Virus record (IMG/VR): IMGVR_UViG_3300006751_000032
Location: 1-40,272 of that record
Strand: one strand, 5' to 3'
Length of the DNA: 40,272 nucleotides
Source: a virus
Of the stretch, positions 23,328 through 39,388 are shown piece after piece (the stretch's first letter is position 1; each line of letters starts with the position of its first letter). The translations under genes were made by a program, and so were the position numbers. The notes beneath the pieces were generated by a model that was not told the DNA's origin, made no database searches, and worked only from the letters and a program-made list of their open reading frames with translations.

Positions 23328-23336
23328 TATAAATAT
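23328..23336 (+). promoter_or_regulatory. T4-type late promoter of the cargo operon
   Basis: TATAAATAT, 60 bases before the ATG at 23395. No other promoter is obvious until 34103, so it may serve about 10.8 kb. Confidence 0.7.
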
Positions 23337-24618: not shown

Positions 24619-25301
24619 CAGCAGTAGCAAGTTTTGCACAACACATAACTGAAGGCGTTTATGATAAAGGAATATTTAAAGCTTTCTTCCTTGCAGGTGG
24701 ACCTGCGTCAGGAAAATCGTTTGTTTCTGCTAGAGCATTTGCTGGTTCTGGATTGAAAGTTGTAAATTCAGATAAAAAATTTGAAGCCGATTTAAAGAAA
24801 ACAAATTTATCATTAAGTATGCCTGAACACGAAAAATATTTTAGAGATAAAATAAGAGCTGGTGCAAAAGCAGTAACAGCAACTGCATTAGGCTCTTATG
24901 TTCAAGGAAGATTAGGATTAGTTATTGATAGTACAGCAAGAGATTATGATTCTATTGCTAGACAATATCAGATGTTAACTTTGTTAGGATATGATTGTTA
25001 TATGATATTTGTCCAAACACCTTTACAAGTTGCTTTAGAGCGACAAAAACAAAGAGAAAGACAAATGGCAGATTATATTTTAACAACTTCTTGGAAACAA
25101 ACACAAAGTAATAAACCTAAATATAAAAGATTGTTTGGTTCTAATTATAGTGAAGTTGAAAATAACAAATCAAATTTAGAATTAATAACAATAACTATGA
25201 ATAAAGTGGCAAGACAAGTAACAGCATTATTAAATGCACCAATTAAAAGTTTTACAGCCAGAAAATGGATTGTAAGTAGATTAAAGGAGAAACGTAGATG
25301 A
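24615..25301 (+). CDS. P-loop kinase (zeta-toxin / polynucleotide-kinase-like)
   Basis: 228 residues, ATGA overlap with the ligase-like gene. Seen: N-terminal SFAQHITEGVYD, a targeting-like motif; Walker A GGPASGKS (28-35); VVNSDKKFE; GLVIDSTARDYDSIARQYQMLTLLGYD and the arginine-rich lid LERQKQRERQM. This arrangement is that of zeta-toxin and T4 polynucleotide kinase type phosphotransferases. Coupled to the ligase-like gene, so the pair could heal and seal nucleic-acid ends, as T4 Pnkp and Rnl do; that is inference. Alternatives: nucleotide or sugar kinase, toxin-like kinase. Confidence 0.75.
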   Translation: MTAVASFAQHITEGVYDKGIFKAFFLAGGPASGKSFVSARAFAGSGLKVVNSDKKFEADLKKTNLSLSMPEHEKYFRDKIRAGAKAVTATALGSYVQGRLGLVIDSTARDYDSIARQYQMLTLLGYDCYMIFVQTPLQVALERQKQRERQMADYILTTSWKQTQSNKPKYKRLFGSNYSEVENNKSNLELITITMNKVARQVTALLNAPIKSFTARKWIVSRLKEKRR

Positions 25302-25765
25302 AAATATCAGATAGTACAGCAATTTCTATGCCTATGCGAAATTTATTATCCATCCTAGCAGCTGTAGGTATAGGAGTGTGGGCTTATTTTGGGGTGATGG
25401 AGAGATTAAATAATTTAGAAACAAAAGCTACACTTGCAGAAAAAGATTTAACTAGTGAAGTGCAAAGAATTGATAAAGATATAGATTCATTGGTTACAGG
25501 TGATATTGCACAAAATAATGAATTTAGGATCAAATGGCCAAGGGGGGATTTAGGTTCTCCGCCTGCTGATTCTGAACAATTTATGCTTATAGAATTTCTT
25601 TCAGGACAAGTGGAAAGTCTTACGAAGCAACTTGAAGGTATGATGAACAATAAGGTAAACATTGAAAGGTTGCAGACGGATATGGAGAAGTCTTTGGAAG
25701 ATATTGAGAAATTAAAGGACAAGATTAGAGAAACCAATACTGGTTTTACTACGGAGGGGAATTAA
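25298..25765 (+). CDS. Membrane-anchored coiled-coil protein
   Basis: 155 residues, overlapping the kinase gene by four bases, with AAGGAG upstream. Seen: MKISDSTAISMPMRNLL, one membrane helix (about 14-32, LLSILAAVGIGVWAYFGVM), a coiled coil (35-65), a short RIKWPRGDLGSPPADSEQF linker and a second coiled coil (90-148). Proteins with the same opening occur in marine T4-like phages next to cargo-type genes. Function unknown. The layout would suit an envelope-spanning or virion-attached protein. Confidence 0.75.
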   Translation: MKISDSTAISMPMRNLLSILAAVGIGVWAYFGVMERLNNLETKATLAEKDLTSEVQRIDKDIDSLVTGDIAQNNEFRIKWPRGDLGSPPADSEQFMLIEFLSGQVESLTKQLEGMMNNKVNIERLQTDMEKSLEDIEKLKDKIRETNTGFTTEGN

Positions 25766-26065
25766 ATGGACGCAGCTACTTTAGTTACCATCATAACAAT
25801 GTTTATTGTAACTGATACATCAAGCGAATTTGTTAAGTATGATGGTTTAATGAGCTGTTTGAAAGATAAAAGAAAGATTGAAAAATTAAAAGATGGTCGT
25901 AGAGTAATCTGTGGTCCATCTATGGCAGAAATTGACGCAGAAGGTAATATTATCAGTATTAAAAACAAAATGCCAGACCAATCTGGTAGTTTAAAACTAG
26001 GTGGTACAGCGAAGTCTTTAACAGAAAAGAAAAAAGAAAAAAAGACTAAAGTATTAACGCAATAG
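25766..26065 (+). CDS. Small membrane-associated protein with CLxxKRxxEK motif
   Basis: 99 residues, abutting the upstream stop. Seen: a hydrophobic start (AATLVTIITMFIVTD, residues 3-17), then SCLKDKRKIEKLKDGRRVICG and a lysine-rich tail. The CLxxKRxxEK segment recurs in the gene at 27129 (DCLKTKREVEK), followed in both by a second cysteine. The two related genes flank the amino-acid-binding lipoprotein. The hydrophobic N-terminus could be an uncleaved anchor or signal. Function unknown. Confidence 0.7.
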   Translation: MDAATLVTIITMFIVTDTSSEFVKYDGLMSCLKDKRKIEKLKDGRRVICGPSMAEIDAEGNIISIKNKMPDQSGSLKLGGTAKSLTEKKKEKKTKVLTQ

Positions 26066-26085: not shown

Positions 26086-27120
26086 ATGAAAAAAATATTA
26101 ATGAGTTTATTAGTTGCTTTATTTTTAGTTGGTTGTAATACAACAAAGAGTGTTAAAATAGAACAAGAAGTCGGTCTTTTAAAAACCGTACAAGAAAGAG
26201 GTTATGTTATTTGTGGAGTTAATGCAGGTCTACCAGGATTTTCTGCTCAAGATGAGAACGGAAACTGGAGTGGTTTAGATGTAGATTTCTGTAAAGCAGT
26301 TGCCGCTGCTATATTTGGTGATTCAAGTAAAGTAGAATTTATAGGATTAAATGCTAGTCAAAGATTTCCAACATTAGCGTCAGGTAATATTGATGTACTT
26401 GCAAGAAATACTACTTGGACAATCAGTAGGGATGTAAACTTAATGTTTGAATTTGCTGGTGTCAATTACTATGACGGTCAAGGATTTTTAATACCAACAG
26501 ATTTAGATATTAAGAGTGCAACAGAATTAGATGGTGCGTATGTATGTATTACAAAAGAAACAACATCTGAATTAAATTTAAACGATTATTTTGCAGAAAA
26601 TAATATGGCATATCAACCAATATATGTTGAAGGCAATAAAGACGCAAAGGCAAAATTATTTAATGGCGAGTGTGATGTATTCACAACAGACGCTTCAGGA
26701 TTAGCGTCAGCGAGAGCTGGTGCAGAAGACCCTAGTAAGTGGATGGTATTACCAGAAATTATATCAAAAGAACCATTAGGTCCACTTGTAAGACAAGGCG
26801 ACCAAGAGTGGGAAGATGTAGTTAGATGGACACACTTCATTATGGTAAATGCCGAAGAAGCAGGTATCACAATGTATAATGTAGATTTAATGTTAACTTC
26901 AAAAAATAAAGAAGTTAAAAGAATATTAGGTGTGGAAGGTTATATCGGTCCAATGTTAGGACTTGGTATGAAATTTGGTTATAACATTATCAAACAAGTT
27001 GGTAATTATGGAGAGTCATTTGAAAGAAATGTGGGACCAAATACACCACTTGCTTTAGAAAGAGGATTAAATAATCTTTGGAAAAACGGTGGCGTAATGT
27101 ATGTGCCACCAATTAGGTAA
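26086..27120 (+). CDS. ABC-type amino-acid-binding lipoprotein
   Basis: 344 residues. Seen: lipoprotein signal with lipobox L-V-G-C (Cys17); then a complete substrate-binding protein: VQERGYVICGVNAGLPGFSAQD, GLDVDFCKAVAAAIFG, FPTLASGNIDVLARNTTWT, and GVMYVPPIR at the end. This is the pattern of general L-amino-acid-binding proteins of the AapJ/BztA/YhdW group, abundant in SAR11. Those are normally soluble periplasmic proteins; the lipobox is unusual. No permease or ATPase gene accompanies it. Inference: captured from a host and adapted as an auxiliary metabolic gene, perhaps feeding the host transporter during infection or altering the cell surface. Confidence 0.93.
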   Translation: MKKILMSLLVALFLVGCNTTKSVKIEQEVGLLKTVQERGYVICGVNAGLPGFSAQDENGNWSGLDVDFCKAVAAAIFGDSSKVEFIGLNASQRFPTLASGNIDVLARNTTWTISRDVNLMFEFAGVNYYDGQGFLIPTDLDIKSATELDGAYVCITKETTSELNLNDYFAENNMAYQPIYVEGNKDAKAKLFNGECDVFTTDASGLASARAGAEDPSKWMVLPEIISKEPLGPLVRQGDQEWEDVVRWTHFIMVNAEEAGITMYNVDLMLTSKNKEVKRILGVEGYIGPMLGLGMKFGYNIIKQVGNYGESFERNVGPNTPLALERGLNNLWKNGGVMYVPPIR

Positions 27121-27128
27121 GGAGAAAT

Positions 27129-27611
27129 ATGTTTAAAAAATTATGTGATAAAATAGGATTTAAAAATGGTGGTATTAAAGAGTTGGCAACAATACTAGGT
27201 GCTCTATTCTTAATCGCTATAATATTTGGTGTAGTATTGCATAGTACAAGAGCAAATGCAGATTGTACAGGTTGCGGAGATGATGGACACCAAATTTGTC
27301 CAGTAGAAGGTGACCACGAACACAAAAAACCAGAAGTAGTTTTTGCAGTATGTGTCTTTGCAGATGGTACATTAATTGACCATAAAGGTGCTAACTCAAT
27401 GTCCGATTGCTTAAAGACTAAAAGAGAAGTTGAAAAGGCTTGGAGAAATAGAGCAGACGAAACAGATAGTGTAGAAATAAATGGTATTACTTACAAGATA
27501 GATGGTGAGTCATTAGCATTTATGTGTGATTTAGTGGACGCAAGAGTACATCATTATAATGATGGTACTTGGGAAATAGTTAAGATATTAGGCAAACATA
27601 AAAAGGACTAA
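27129..27611 (+). CDS. Cysteine-rich periplasmic/membrane protein
   Basis: 160 residues, AAGGAG upstream. Seen: an N-terminal membrane helix (about 19-38, ELATILGALFLIAIIFGVVLH), ending RANADC, which may be a signal-peptidase site; then DCTGCGDDGHQIC and HEH, a possible metal-binding cluster; then SMSDCLKTKREVEK and FMCDLVDA. The latter motif is shared with the gene at 25766. Probably exposed on the periplasmic side. Function unknown; positioned directly after the binding lipoprotein, 8 bases away. Confidence 0.72.
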   Translation: MFKKLCDKIGFKNGGIKELATILGALFLIAIIFGVVLHSTRANADCTGCGDDGHQICPVEGDHEHKKPEVVFAVCVFADGTLIDHKGANSMSDCLKTKREVEKAWRNRADETDSVEINGITYKIDGESLAFMCDLVDARVHHYNDGTWEIVKILGKHKKD

Positions 27612-27613
27612 CA

Positions 27614-27760
27614 ATGTTAAAAGAAATAAAAAGATGGTGTATTGAAGTTTCAAAAGCACTTTGTAGTGAAACGGTCAGTACAGCAGGAACCATTTGTGAT
27701 AAAACAAAGAAAGCAAATGCTGACTTTGTTAAAGCAATAATGGATGGTATTTACAGATAA
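27614..27760 (+). CDS. Small protein, unknown (48 aa)
   Basis: 48 residues, two bases after the upstream stop and overlapping the next ATG by one base (taATG). Helical and polar, with two cysteines (RWCIEV, ALCSE) and a third (TICDK). Begins MLKEIKRW, similar to the MLKRFKEH start of the next gene. No membrane segment. No family recognised. Confidence 0.65.
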   Translation: MLKEIKRWCIEVSKALCSETVSTAGTICDKTKKANADFVKAIMDGIYR

Positions 27761-38917: not shown

Positions 38918-39388
38918 ATGTTTGGTTATTTAAAGATGATGTTTGTAGTTATTATTATCGCTGGTATATCTGGCGCTGGAATGTATGTTATGAAACTGCG
39001 TAGTGATAATGCAATCTTAAAAGCAAATCAAATCAAACTAGAAGAAGCAGTCAGCTCCCAAAAGGAGCTGATTGCCAAGCAAGAGGCAGACTTTAAAGAA
39101 ATATTGGCTGCTAATCAAAAGATGAATGAGCTTGTGAGTGCCCTTAAAAAAGACCTTGATGATTTAGATAAAAGATTTAACAAAAAAAATAGGGATGTAG
39201 GCAAACTTGCAATTGCTAAAACTAAATCTATTGAGAGAATAACAAACGGTGCAAGTGCATTGGCTACAAGATGTATTGAGATTGCAAGTGGATCACCATT
39301 AACGGAGAAAGAAAAGAATGCTACAAAGAAGTCAGAAATCAATTCTGAATGTCCGTCAATAGCAAATCCGAATTTCATAAATTATTAA
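38918..39388 (+). CDS. Rz-like inner-membrane spanin candidate
   Basis: 156 residues. Seen: one N-terminal membrane helix (about 6-25, KMMFVVIIIAGISGAGMYVM), a long coiled coil (28-100), a helix ending TRCIEIASG, and a C-terminal part with a second Cys (SECPSIANP). This is the general layout of Rz-type i-spanins. An embedded o-spanin lipoprotein was not found in the other frames. Related proteins in marine phages are usually annotated Rz-like or unknown. Follows the holin candidate by 6 bases. Confidence 0.65.
   Translation: MFGYLKMMFVVIIIAGISGAGMYVMKLRSDNAILKANQIKLEEAVSSQKELIAKQEADFKEILAANQKMNELVSALKKDLDDLDKRFNKKNRDVGKLAIAKTKSIERITNGASALATRCIEIASGSPLTEKEKNATKKSEINSECPSIANPNFINY

Follow-up and report, generated by a model that had tools for sequence, protein, structure and literature searches.

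A full-length amino-acid-type solute-binding protein (SBP) of the AapJ/BztA type is carried by phages, where it sits within a set of three small genes, here called A, B and C. It was found in a viral DNA stretch of 40,272 nucleotides (IMG/VR record IMGVR_UViG_3300006751_000032, positions 1–40,272), hereafter the window, whose coordinates are used throughout. The best reading of the protein is a membrane-held amino-acid catcher that serves a host permease, and we give this about an even chance of being right. The features on which the argument turns are as follows.

23328–23335 (+): TATAAATA, T4-late-promoter-like, putatively a promoter; upstream of a run formed by a DUF6267 gene, a kinase-like gene and A-B-SBP-C
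25298–25765 (+): gene A, 155 aa, one N-terminal hydrophobic segment, then a coiled-coil-like region
25766–26065 (+): gene B, 99 aa, with a CLKxKR...CGPS motif
26086–27120 (+): SBP, AapJ/BztA-type family-3 solute-binding protein, 344 aa
26086–26136 (+): lipoprotein signal of the SBP, residues 1–17, ending in the lipobox LVGC, read directly from the sequence (Cys17 codon at 26134–26136)
27129–27611 (+): gene C, 160 aa, exported or anchored, with a Cys/His-rich linker and a domain

Identity, fold and ligand site of the binding protein

The SBP frame is open and intact along its full length in translation, and its product matches Pfam SBP_bac_3 (PF00497) at 53.6 bits against a curated cut-off of 26.4. 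The nearest solved structure is 4z9n from Brucella ovis, by its title an amino-acid-binding protein with glutathione bound in the crystal; residues 31–344 align with it as far as the C-terminal residue (E 2e-106), and this full-length alignment includes the C-terminal extension of the AapJ/BztA type. An AlphaFold2 model built from a 48-row alignment (A1) had a mean pLDDT of 86 and a pTM of 0.83, and superposed on 4z9n with a Z of 42.2 and an rmsd of 1.8 over 315 residues (52% identity). A BFVD fold search gave weak matches only, the best having a TM of 0.48 by query length. The first-pass annotation, made from the sequence alone, had proposed a full-length AapJ/BztA-like binding protein, and the profile match, the 4z9n alignment and the model superposition all bear this out.

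Six residues (R93, T110, R115, T159, T160 and D202) are invariant in 48 aligned phage and bacterial sequences. Going by the DEBP and LAO structures, we take these to hold the carboxylate, side chain and amino group of the ligand. The core amino-acid-binding positions are hence kept, and the loss of such residues that had earlier been named as a possible refutation did not occur. The mature protein is under purifying selection, with a median dN/dS of 0.143 over 1242 pairs from 53 distinct genes, compared with 0.758 for the N-terminal 30 residues.

Four further positions set the phage proteins apart in a comparison of 48 distinct phage rows with 22 rows from the alphaproteobacterial order of genome G166 (see below) and 98 other bacterial rows. 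Position 156 is fixed as T in phages and is mostly Q in bacteria; position 158 is E in 98% of the 48 phage rows and G in 120/120 distinct bacterial rows; position 161 is fixed as S in phages and is T in all 120 bacterial rows; and position 185 is fixed as K in phages and is mostly E or D in bacteria. The phage T156 and S161 are the same as in DEBP (2ia4) in the alignment, E158 is not. These positions presumably border the ligand loops in relatives, so that specificity may be altered, and the fit of the phage SBP to its ligand or to a permease may have changed. Taken further, the SBP could scavenge or sequester another ligand, such as glutathione, a dipeptide or an opine-like molecule. The glutathione in 4z9n favours this, as do the four phage-fixed positions, where bacteria are near-uniform or carry another charge; however, the positions that we assume to hold the ligand backbone in relatives are unchanged in the phage protein, and we consider a changed ligand decidedly improbable.

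Residence in phage genomes

The genes around the SBP include a T4-type sliding clamp, clamp loader, RegA-type repressor, DNA polymerase, UvsX and replicative helicase. The closest phage record to the DNA polymerase of the window is Pelagibacter phage Mosig EXVC030M (59%). Relatives of the SBP occur on at least 90 viral contigs, from which 80 loci were retrieved (77–100% identical); these hold near-duplicates and comprise 48 distinct full-length phage proteins, and 53 distinct genes in the dN/dS set. Nine of 50,697 isolated-phage records matched the SBP, at just 25–27% identity, hence there was no close relative among them.

A bacterial contaminant or a chimeric contig at this point would be in keeping with the closest cellular relatives, alphaproteobacterial proteins at 61–63% identity. 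Against it, the same gene set recurs on the 80 viral contigs as far as each one extends; a T4 major capsid gene lies on the same contig in five of 16 of the larger SBP records, including all three longer than 120 kb; and the phage SBPs form a separate clade (100/100) on a long stem. The shared set, the capsid linkage and the separate clade led us to reject a chimera or contamination, which had been anticipated in the first-pass annotation as a refuting outcome, and we regard its probability as negligible. One additional locus (L384, SBP 47%) was without A, B and C, read as bacterial-like and was set aside.

The absence of permease or ATPase genes alongside the SBP, claimed for the window, holds more widely. 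The permease family PF00528 was found in none of ten SBP-bearing viral records, which may be fragments, and PF00005 matches in four of the ten were only short P-loop fragments in other frames (4–33, 6–32, 5–32 and 14–72 of 137). A complete phage-encoded importer was rejected on the same counts.

The late cargo region to which the SBP gene had also been assigned is at best a possibility: in the window the gene comes after the replication block, although the T4-late-like TATAAATA does stand upstream of its run. This motif has six matches in the window, below a shuffled mean of 12, and five of the six lie just before an ORF start on the coding strand (5647, 7184, 23328, 34103 and 39410, all +). 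Across loci, the late-promoter-like NATAAATA was present at most 120 bases upstream of A in 5/45 distinct loci, with a background of 4%, and of B, the SBP and C in 0/45, 0/60 and 1/46.

A fixed gene set with the binding protein as passenger

ORFs were called in the 80 viral SBP loci and compared with the genes of the window, presence being counted where the contig leaves room. Gene A was in place in 70/70 loci, B in 73/73 and C in 59/59, in contrast to five other neighbours from the window, which were in place in 2/53, 7/64, 4/67, 2/44 and 2/31. As A, B and C are always there while other neighbours change, A-B-SBP-C constitutes a unit, and it occupies at least four genomic positions. Upstream of the set were a baseplate hub (35/80 loci), an Rz/Rz1-type spanin pair (12/80) or DUF6267 with or without uvsX and gp41 (7/80); downstream were a baseplate wedge only (7/80) or TctA (4/80). 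CsgF/G was the only marker in one locus of the 80, and 14 had none of the markers near the set.

Searching with C gave 108 relatives, of which 80 were kept, yielding 74 new loci. The SBP was present in 56 of these and absent despite room in 17, with the remaining one at a contig start. Seven of the 17 SBP-less loci were read in detail: A, a B-position gene and C abut directly in six (L353, L364, L366, L371, L374 and L380), and in L367 the B-position gene and C are separated by a 46-aa ORF. The B-position proteins of L371, L374 and L380 have a signal-peptide-like N-terminus. Among 73 newly fetched loci found with B as query, the SBP came next in 69 and the contig ended there in four. With 17 of 74 C loci lacking it, the SBP is a passenger that has entered or left the set between B and C, and because A-B-C occurs without it, amino-acid capture is not the function of the set itself. 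The two arrangements, A-B-SBP-C and A-B-C, are a natural plus/minus comparison which makes the role of the SBP testable.

A 48-aa ORF after C in the window (27614–27760) is similar by eye to the 46-aa ORF of L367. The different places of these similar ORFs suggest that small genes shuffle around the set.

Genes A, B and C

Gene A had matches in 45 of the 50,697 phage records (40 named Pelagibacter phages, four uncultured and one unassigned), and its family is pelagiphage-specific. Its profile matches were phrog_20984 (listed as unknown), phrog_34293 and phrog_1686. Gene A matched no spanin profile, and the true spanin pair of L023, a 171-kb SBP phage, is separate and matches phrog_739/812; gene A was therefore not assigned to the Rz-type inner spanins. 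A homologue (74%) of the L023 inner spanin is encoded in the window at 38918–39388, approximately 11 kb from the SBP set.

Gene B is the most conserved member of the set (median dN/dS 0.076), and A, B and C are all under purifying selection. Eleven pelagiphage records with A were read, and in 10 of them A is followed within about 0.8 kb by a small B-type gene with a CLK-KR...C motif. Six of the 11 also have an annotated gene for a lysozyme, endolysin or M15 peptidase no more than about 2.5 kb away, and the other five do not. B and C themselves had no match among the 50,697 isolated-phage records. By hhalign, gene B is weakly similar to the B protein of podovirus pelagiphages (probability 44.5, E 2.3e-4 for that pair alone), the domain of gene C is strongly related to the same pelagiphage B domain (E 1.2e-12), and C aligns with B over 21 columns (E 5e-6). 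Cys75, Cys94 and Cys133 are invariant in the gene C domain. The predicted model of C had a pLDDT of 71, and a fold search with it gave no useful match (best Z 3.5). All three are uncharacterised pelagiphage proteins that merit study.

These neighbourhoods raise the possibility of an envelope or lysis module, in which A, B, C and the SBP would form a membrane–periplasm complex that acts in lysis or times it, the SBP being the part that senses a ligand or docks. The B-type gene after A, the nearby lytic enzymes in six pelagiphage records, the purifying selection on A, B and C, and the spanin pair that precedes the set in 12 loci all agree with this, and the arrangement at those 12 loci fits lysis too. 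Gene A has no spanin profile, however, the real spanin pair of L023 is separate, and the set follows a baseplate hub in 35 loci and DUF6267 in seven. We also know of no lysis protein that needs a full-length ligand-binding partner. On balance we think such an envelope or lysis module unlikely.

A probable membrane tether

The SBP of the window begins MKKILMSLLVALFLVGC17, that is, an n-region, a hydrophobic stretch and a lipobox, with 25 residues between Cys17 and the conserved CGVN motif. The N-terminus was readable in 76 of the 80 loci and was hydrophobic in all of them: 53 have a lipobox, and 23 have a longer, Cys-free hydrophobic segment, some ending in an AxA-like sequence. The best 19-residue Kyte-Doolittle means were 2.4–2.8 for Cys-free segments and 1.4–2.3 for the lipobox type. 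A phage-only tree of 34 lipobox and 12 anchor rows requires at least two switches between the two forms. The replacement of an ordinary signal peptide by a lipobox, as first described, hence applies to this copy but not to the 23 with a Cys-free segment. Given that every N-terminus is hydrophobic and that the two types have interchanged, tethering is probably conserved across phage copies.

Among bacterial relatives, 136/139 have no lipobox, and one pattern match is probably by chance. Two relatives from Rhodobiaceae/Parvibaculum (L126 and L149) lack a Met in the range searched and have a hydrophobic, anchor-like N-terminus; they could be a cellular tethered form.

The residue at position +2 of the phage lipobox is N, A, S, Q or G and never D. 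Under the E. coli sorting rule for lipoproteins such residues point to the outer membrane, and an SBP sorted there would be parted from a permease in the inner membrane.

Exclusion is a common task of phage lipoproteins, and a tethered SBP could likewise sit on the host's permease, or on a receptor at the cell surface, and shut out other phages or host uptake. A dominant-negative partner of this kind would be in keeping with the tether, with the fixed set and with the altered residues in the loops. A mere plug, however, would need neither the core ligand residues nor purifying selection over the whole mature protein, both of which are kept, and we rate superinfection exclusion or transporter blockade as rather improbable.

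Origin and host

A phylogeny against SAR11-type and other bacterial orthologues, already envisaged in the first-pass annotation, placed all 17 phage rows (of 71) in one clade (100/100) with a long stem (0.53); as far as these trees go, the phage SBP arose once. The sister of this clade (99/95) comprises 11 rows from the order of G166, while three further rows from the order lie outside it. An orthologue was present in 120 of 150 genomes of this order, the best with 63% identity to the phage SBP. These are small, AT-rich alphaproteobacteria (0.7–1.6 Mb; 31–35% GC at the four loci read), and from the small size and low GC of the genomes the order is probably SAR11/Pelagibacterales. The G166 orthologue stands in an SBP-permease-permease-ATPase operon, as read from translated ORFs, and has an ordinary AHA-type cleavable signal.

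The best host evidence is that nearly all matches of gene A are Pelagibacter phages, and on that basis the host of the SBP phages is very probably SAR11. By its tree, dN/dS and capsid linkage, the SBP is a host-derived gene under purifying selection in a phage genome, and so a candidate auxiliary metabolic gene.

Proposed role and known systems

We propose that the SBP gene may have passed from a SAR11-like bacterium into the ancestral line of these T4-like pelagiphages. The gene would have been parted from its permease and ATPase genes, given a membrane tether and joined to A, B and C, probably envelope proteins, between B and C. During infection the SBP would be exported and fastened to the periplasmic face of a membrane, either by a lipid or through an N-terminal hydrophobic anchor, as its N-termini suggest, and would work alongside the A, B and C proteins. 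It could then close on amino-acid-type ligands, a capability to which the retained site and the selection on it point, and might pass them to an AapQMP-type host permease, so that captured nitrogen and carbon would feed virus production.

The roles proposed earlier were aid to a host transporter, sequestration of amino acids and masking of a surface receptor; among these, service to the host transporter fits best. The same phages encode TctA in 4/16 SBP records, including both longer than 170 kb, and the CsgG outer-membrane pore in 8/16, which supports a nutrient-uptake theme. In PMC9599517 the CsgG pore of phages is already discussed as a possible way for small macromolecules to enter or leave. 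The +2 residues, the spanin-adjacent loci and the occurrence of A-B-C without an SBP call for caution over uptake. Alternatively, the SBP could be the ligand sensor of a pelagiphage envelope complex made up of A, B and C, coupling amino-acid supply to transport, remodelling or lysis time; this we consider a long shot, though if true it would mean that a virus brings along its own sensor of nutrients.

The catcher reading can be set beside several known systems. AapJ/BztA (YhdW-like) proteins of AapJQMP transporters share with the phage SBP their full-length sequence, fold, C-terminal extension and core ligand positions; the phage protein differs in being apparently tethered, without permease or ATPase genes, with phage-only residues at 156, 158, 161 and 185, and in a phage gene set. 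Lipoprotein solute-binding proteins with a comparable lipid tether are known from Gram-positive and some other importers, but these sit with their own importer genes, and nearly all cellular orthologues of the SBP examined were without a lipobox. The T8SS/curli genes CsgG and CsgF of pelagimyophages, found downstream of the set in 8/80 loci, likewise remodel the SAR11 envelope, as an outer-membrane pore and fibres, but do not bind ligands. PstS is likewise the binding protein of an ABC importer in T4-like marine phages. Its carriage by cyanophages, as a phosphate-binding protein, is described in passages of PMC6359870. The SBP reported here differs from it in family and ligand class, in its apparent SAR11 host, its A-B-C partners and its tether.

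The first-pass interpretation of a phage-borne AapJ/BztA-type protein, apparently tethered and without its own permease or ATPase, stands in those respects. It had missed the fixed set, the two tether forms and the phage-only loop residues, which, with the absence of the SBP from part of the family, are new here. No paper on a phage amino-acid-binding SBP came up in searches of the open-access PMC literature, although absence there is not proof. What appears to be new, phage PstS being already known, is a tethered amino-acid-type SBP fixed in a pelagiphage gene set on dozens of T4-like contigs. SAR11 feeds through ABC-type transporters, which take up amino acids and small molecules like them from a very dilute supply. 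If phages keep and move a tethered amino-acid SBP, the chief route of nutrients into the most abundant marine heterotrophs would be under direct viral influence, in parallel to the part ascribed to the PstS of cyanophages for phosphate.

Other genes on these contigs were also recorded. The TctA permease was seen in phage at L060:9618–11057 and in the records of L010, L023 and L078. In L057–L060 it directly follows A-B-SBP-C, and in L060 it is followed by a 380-aa exported-looking protein without a Pfam match and then by a small membrane-like ORF. L023 also encodes a CHASE2 domain fused to an adenylate/guanylate cyclase (L023:11200–12837, −), adjoining CsgF/CsgG; PMC9599517 has previously reported adenylate cyclase in the neighbourhood of curli genes in phages.
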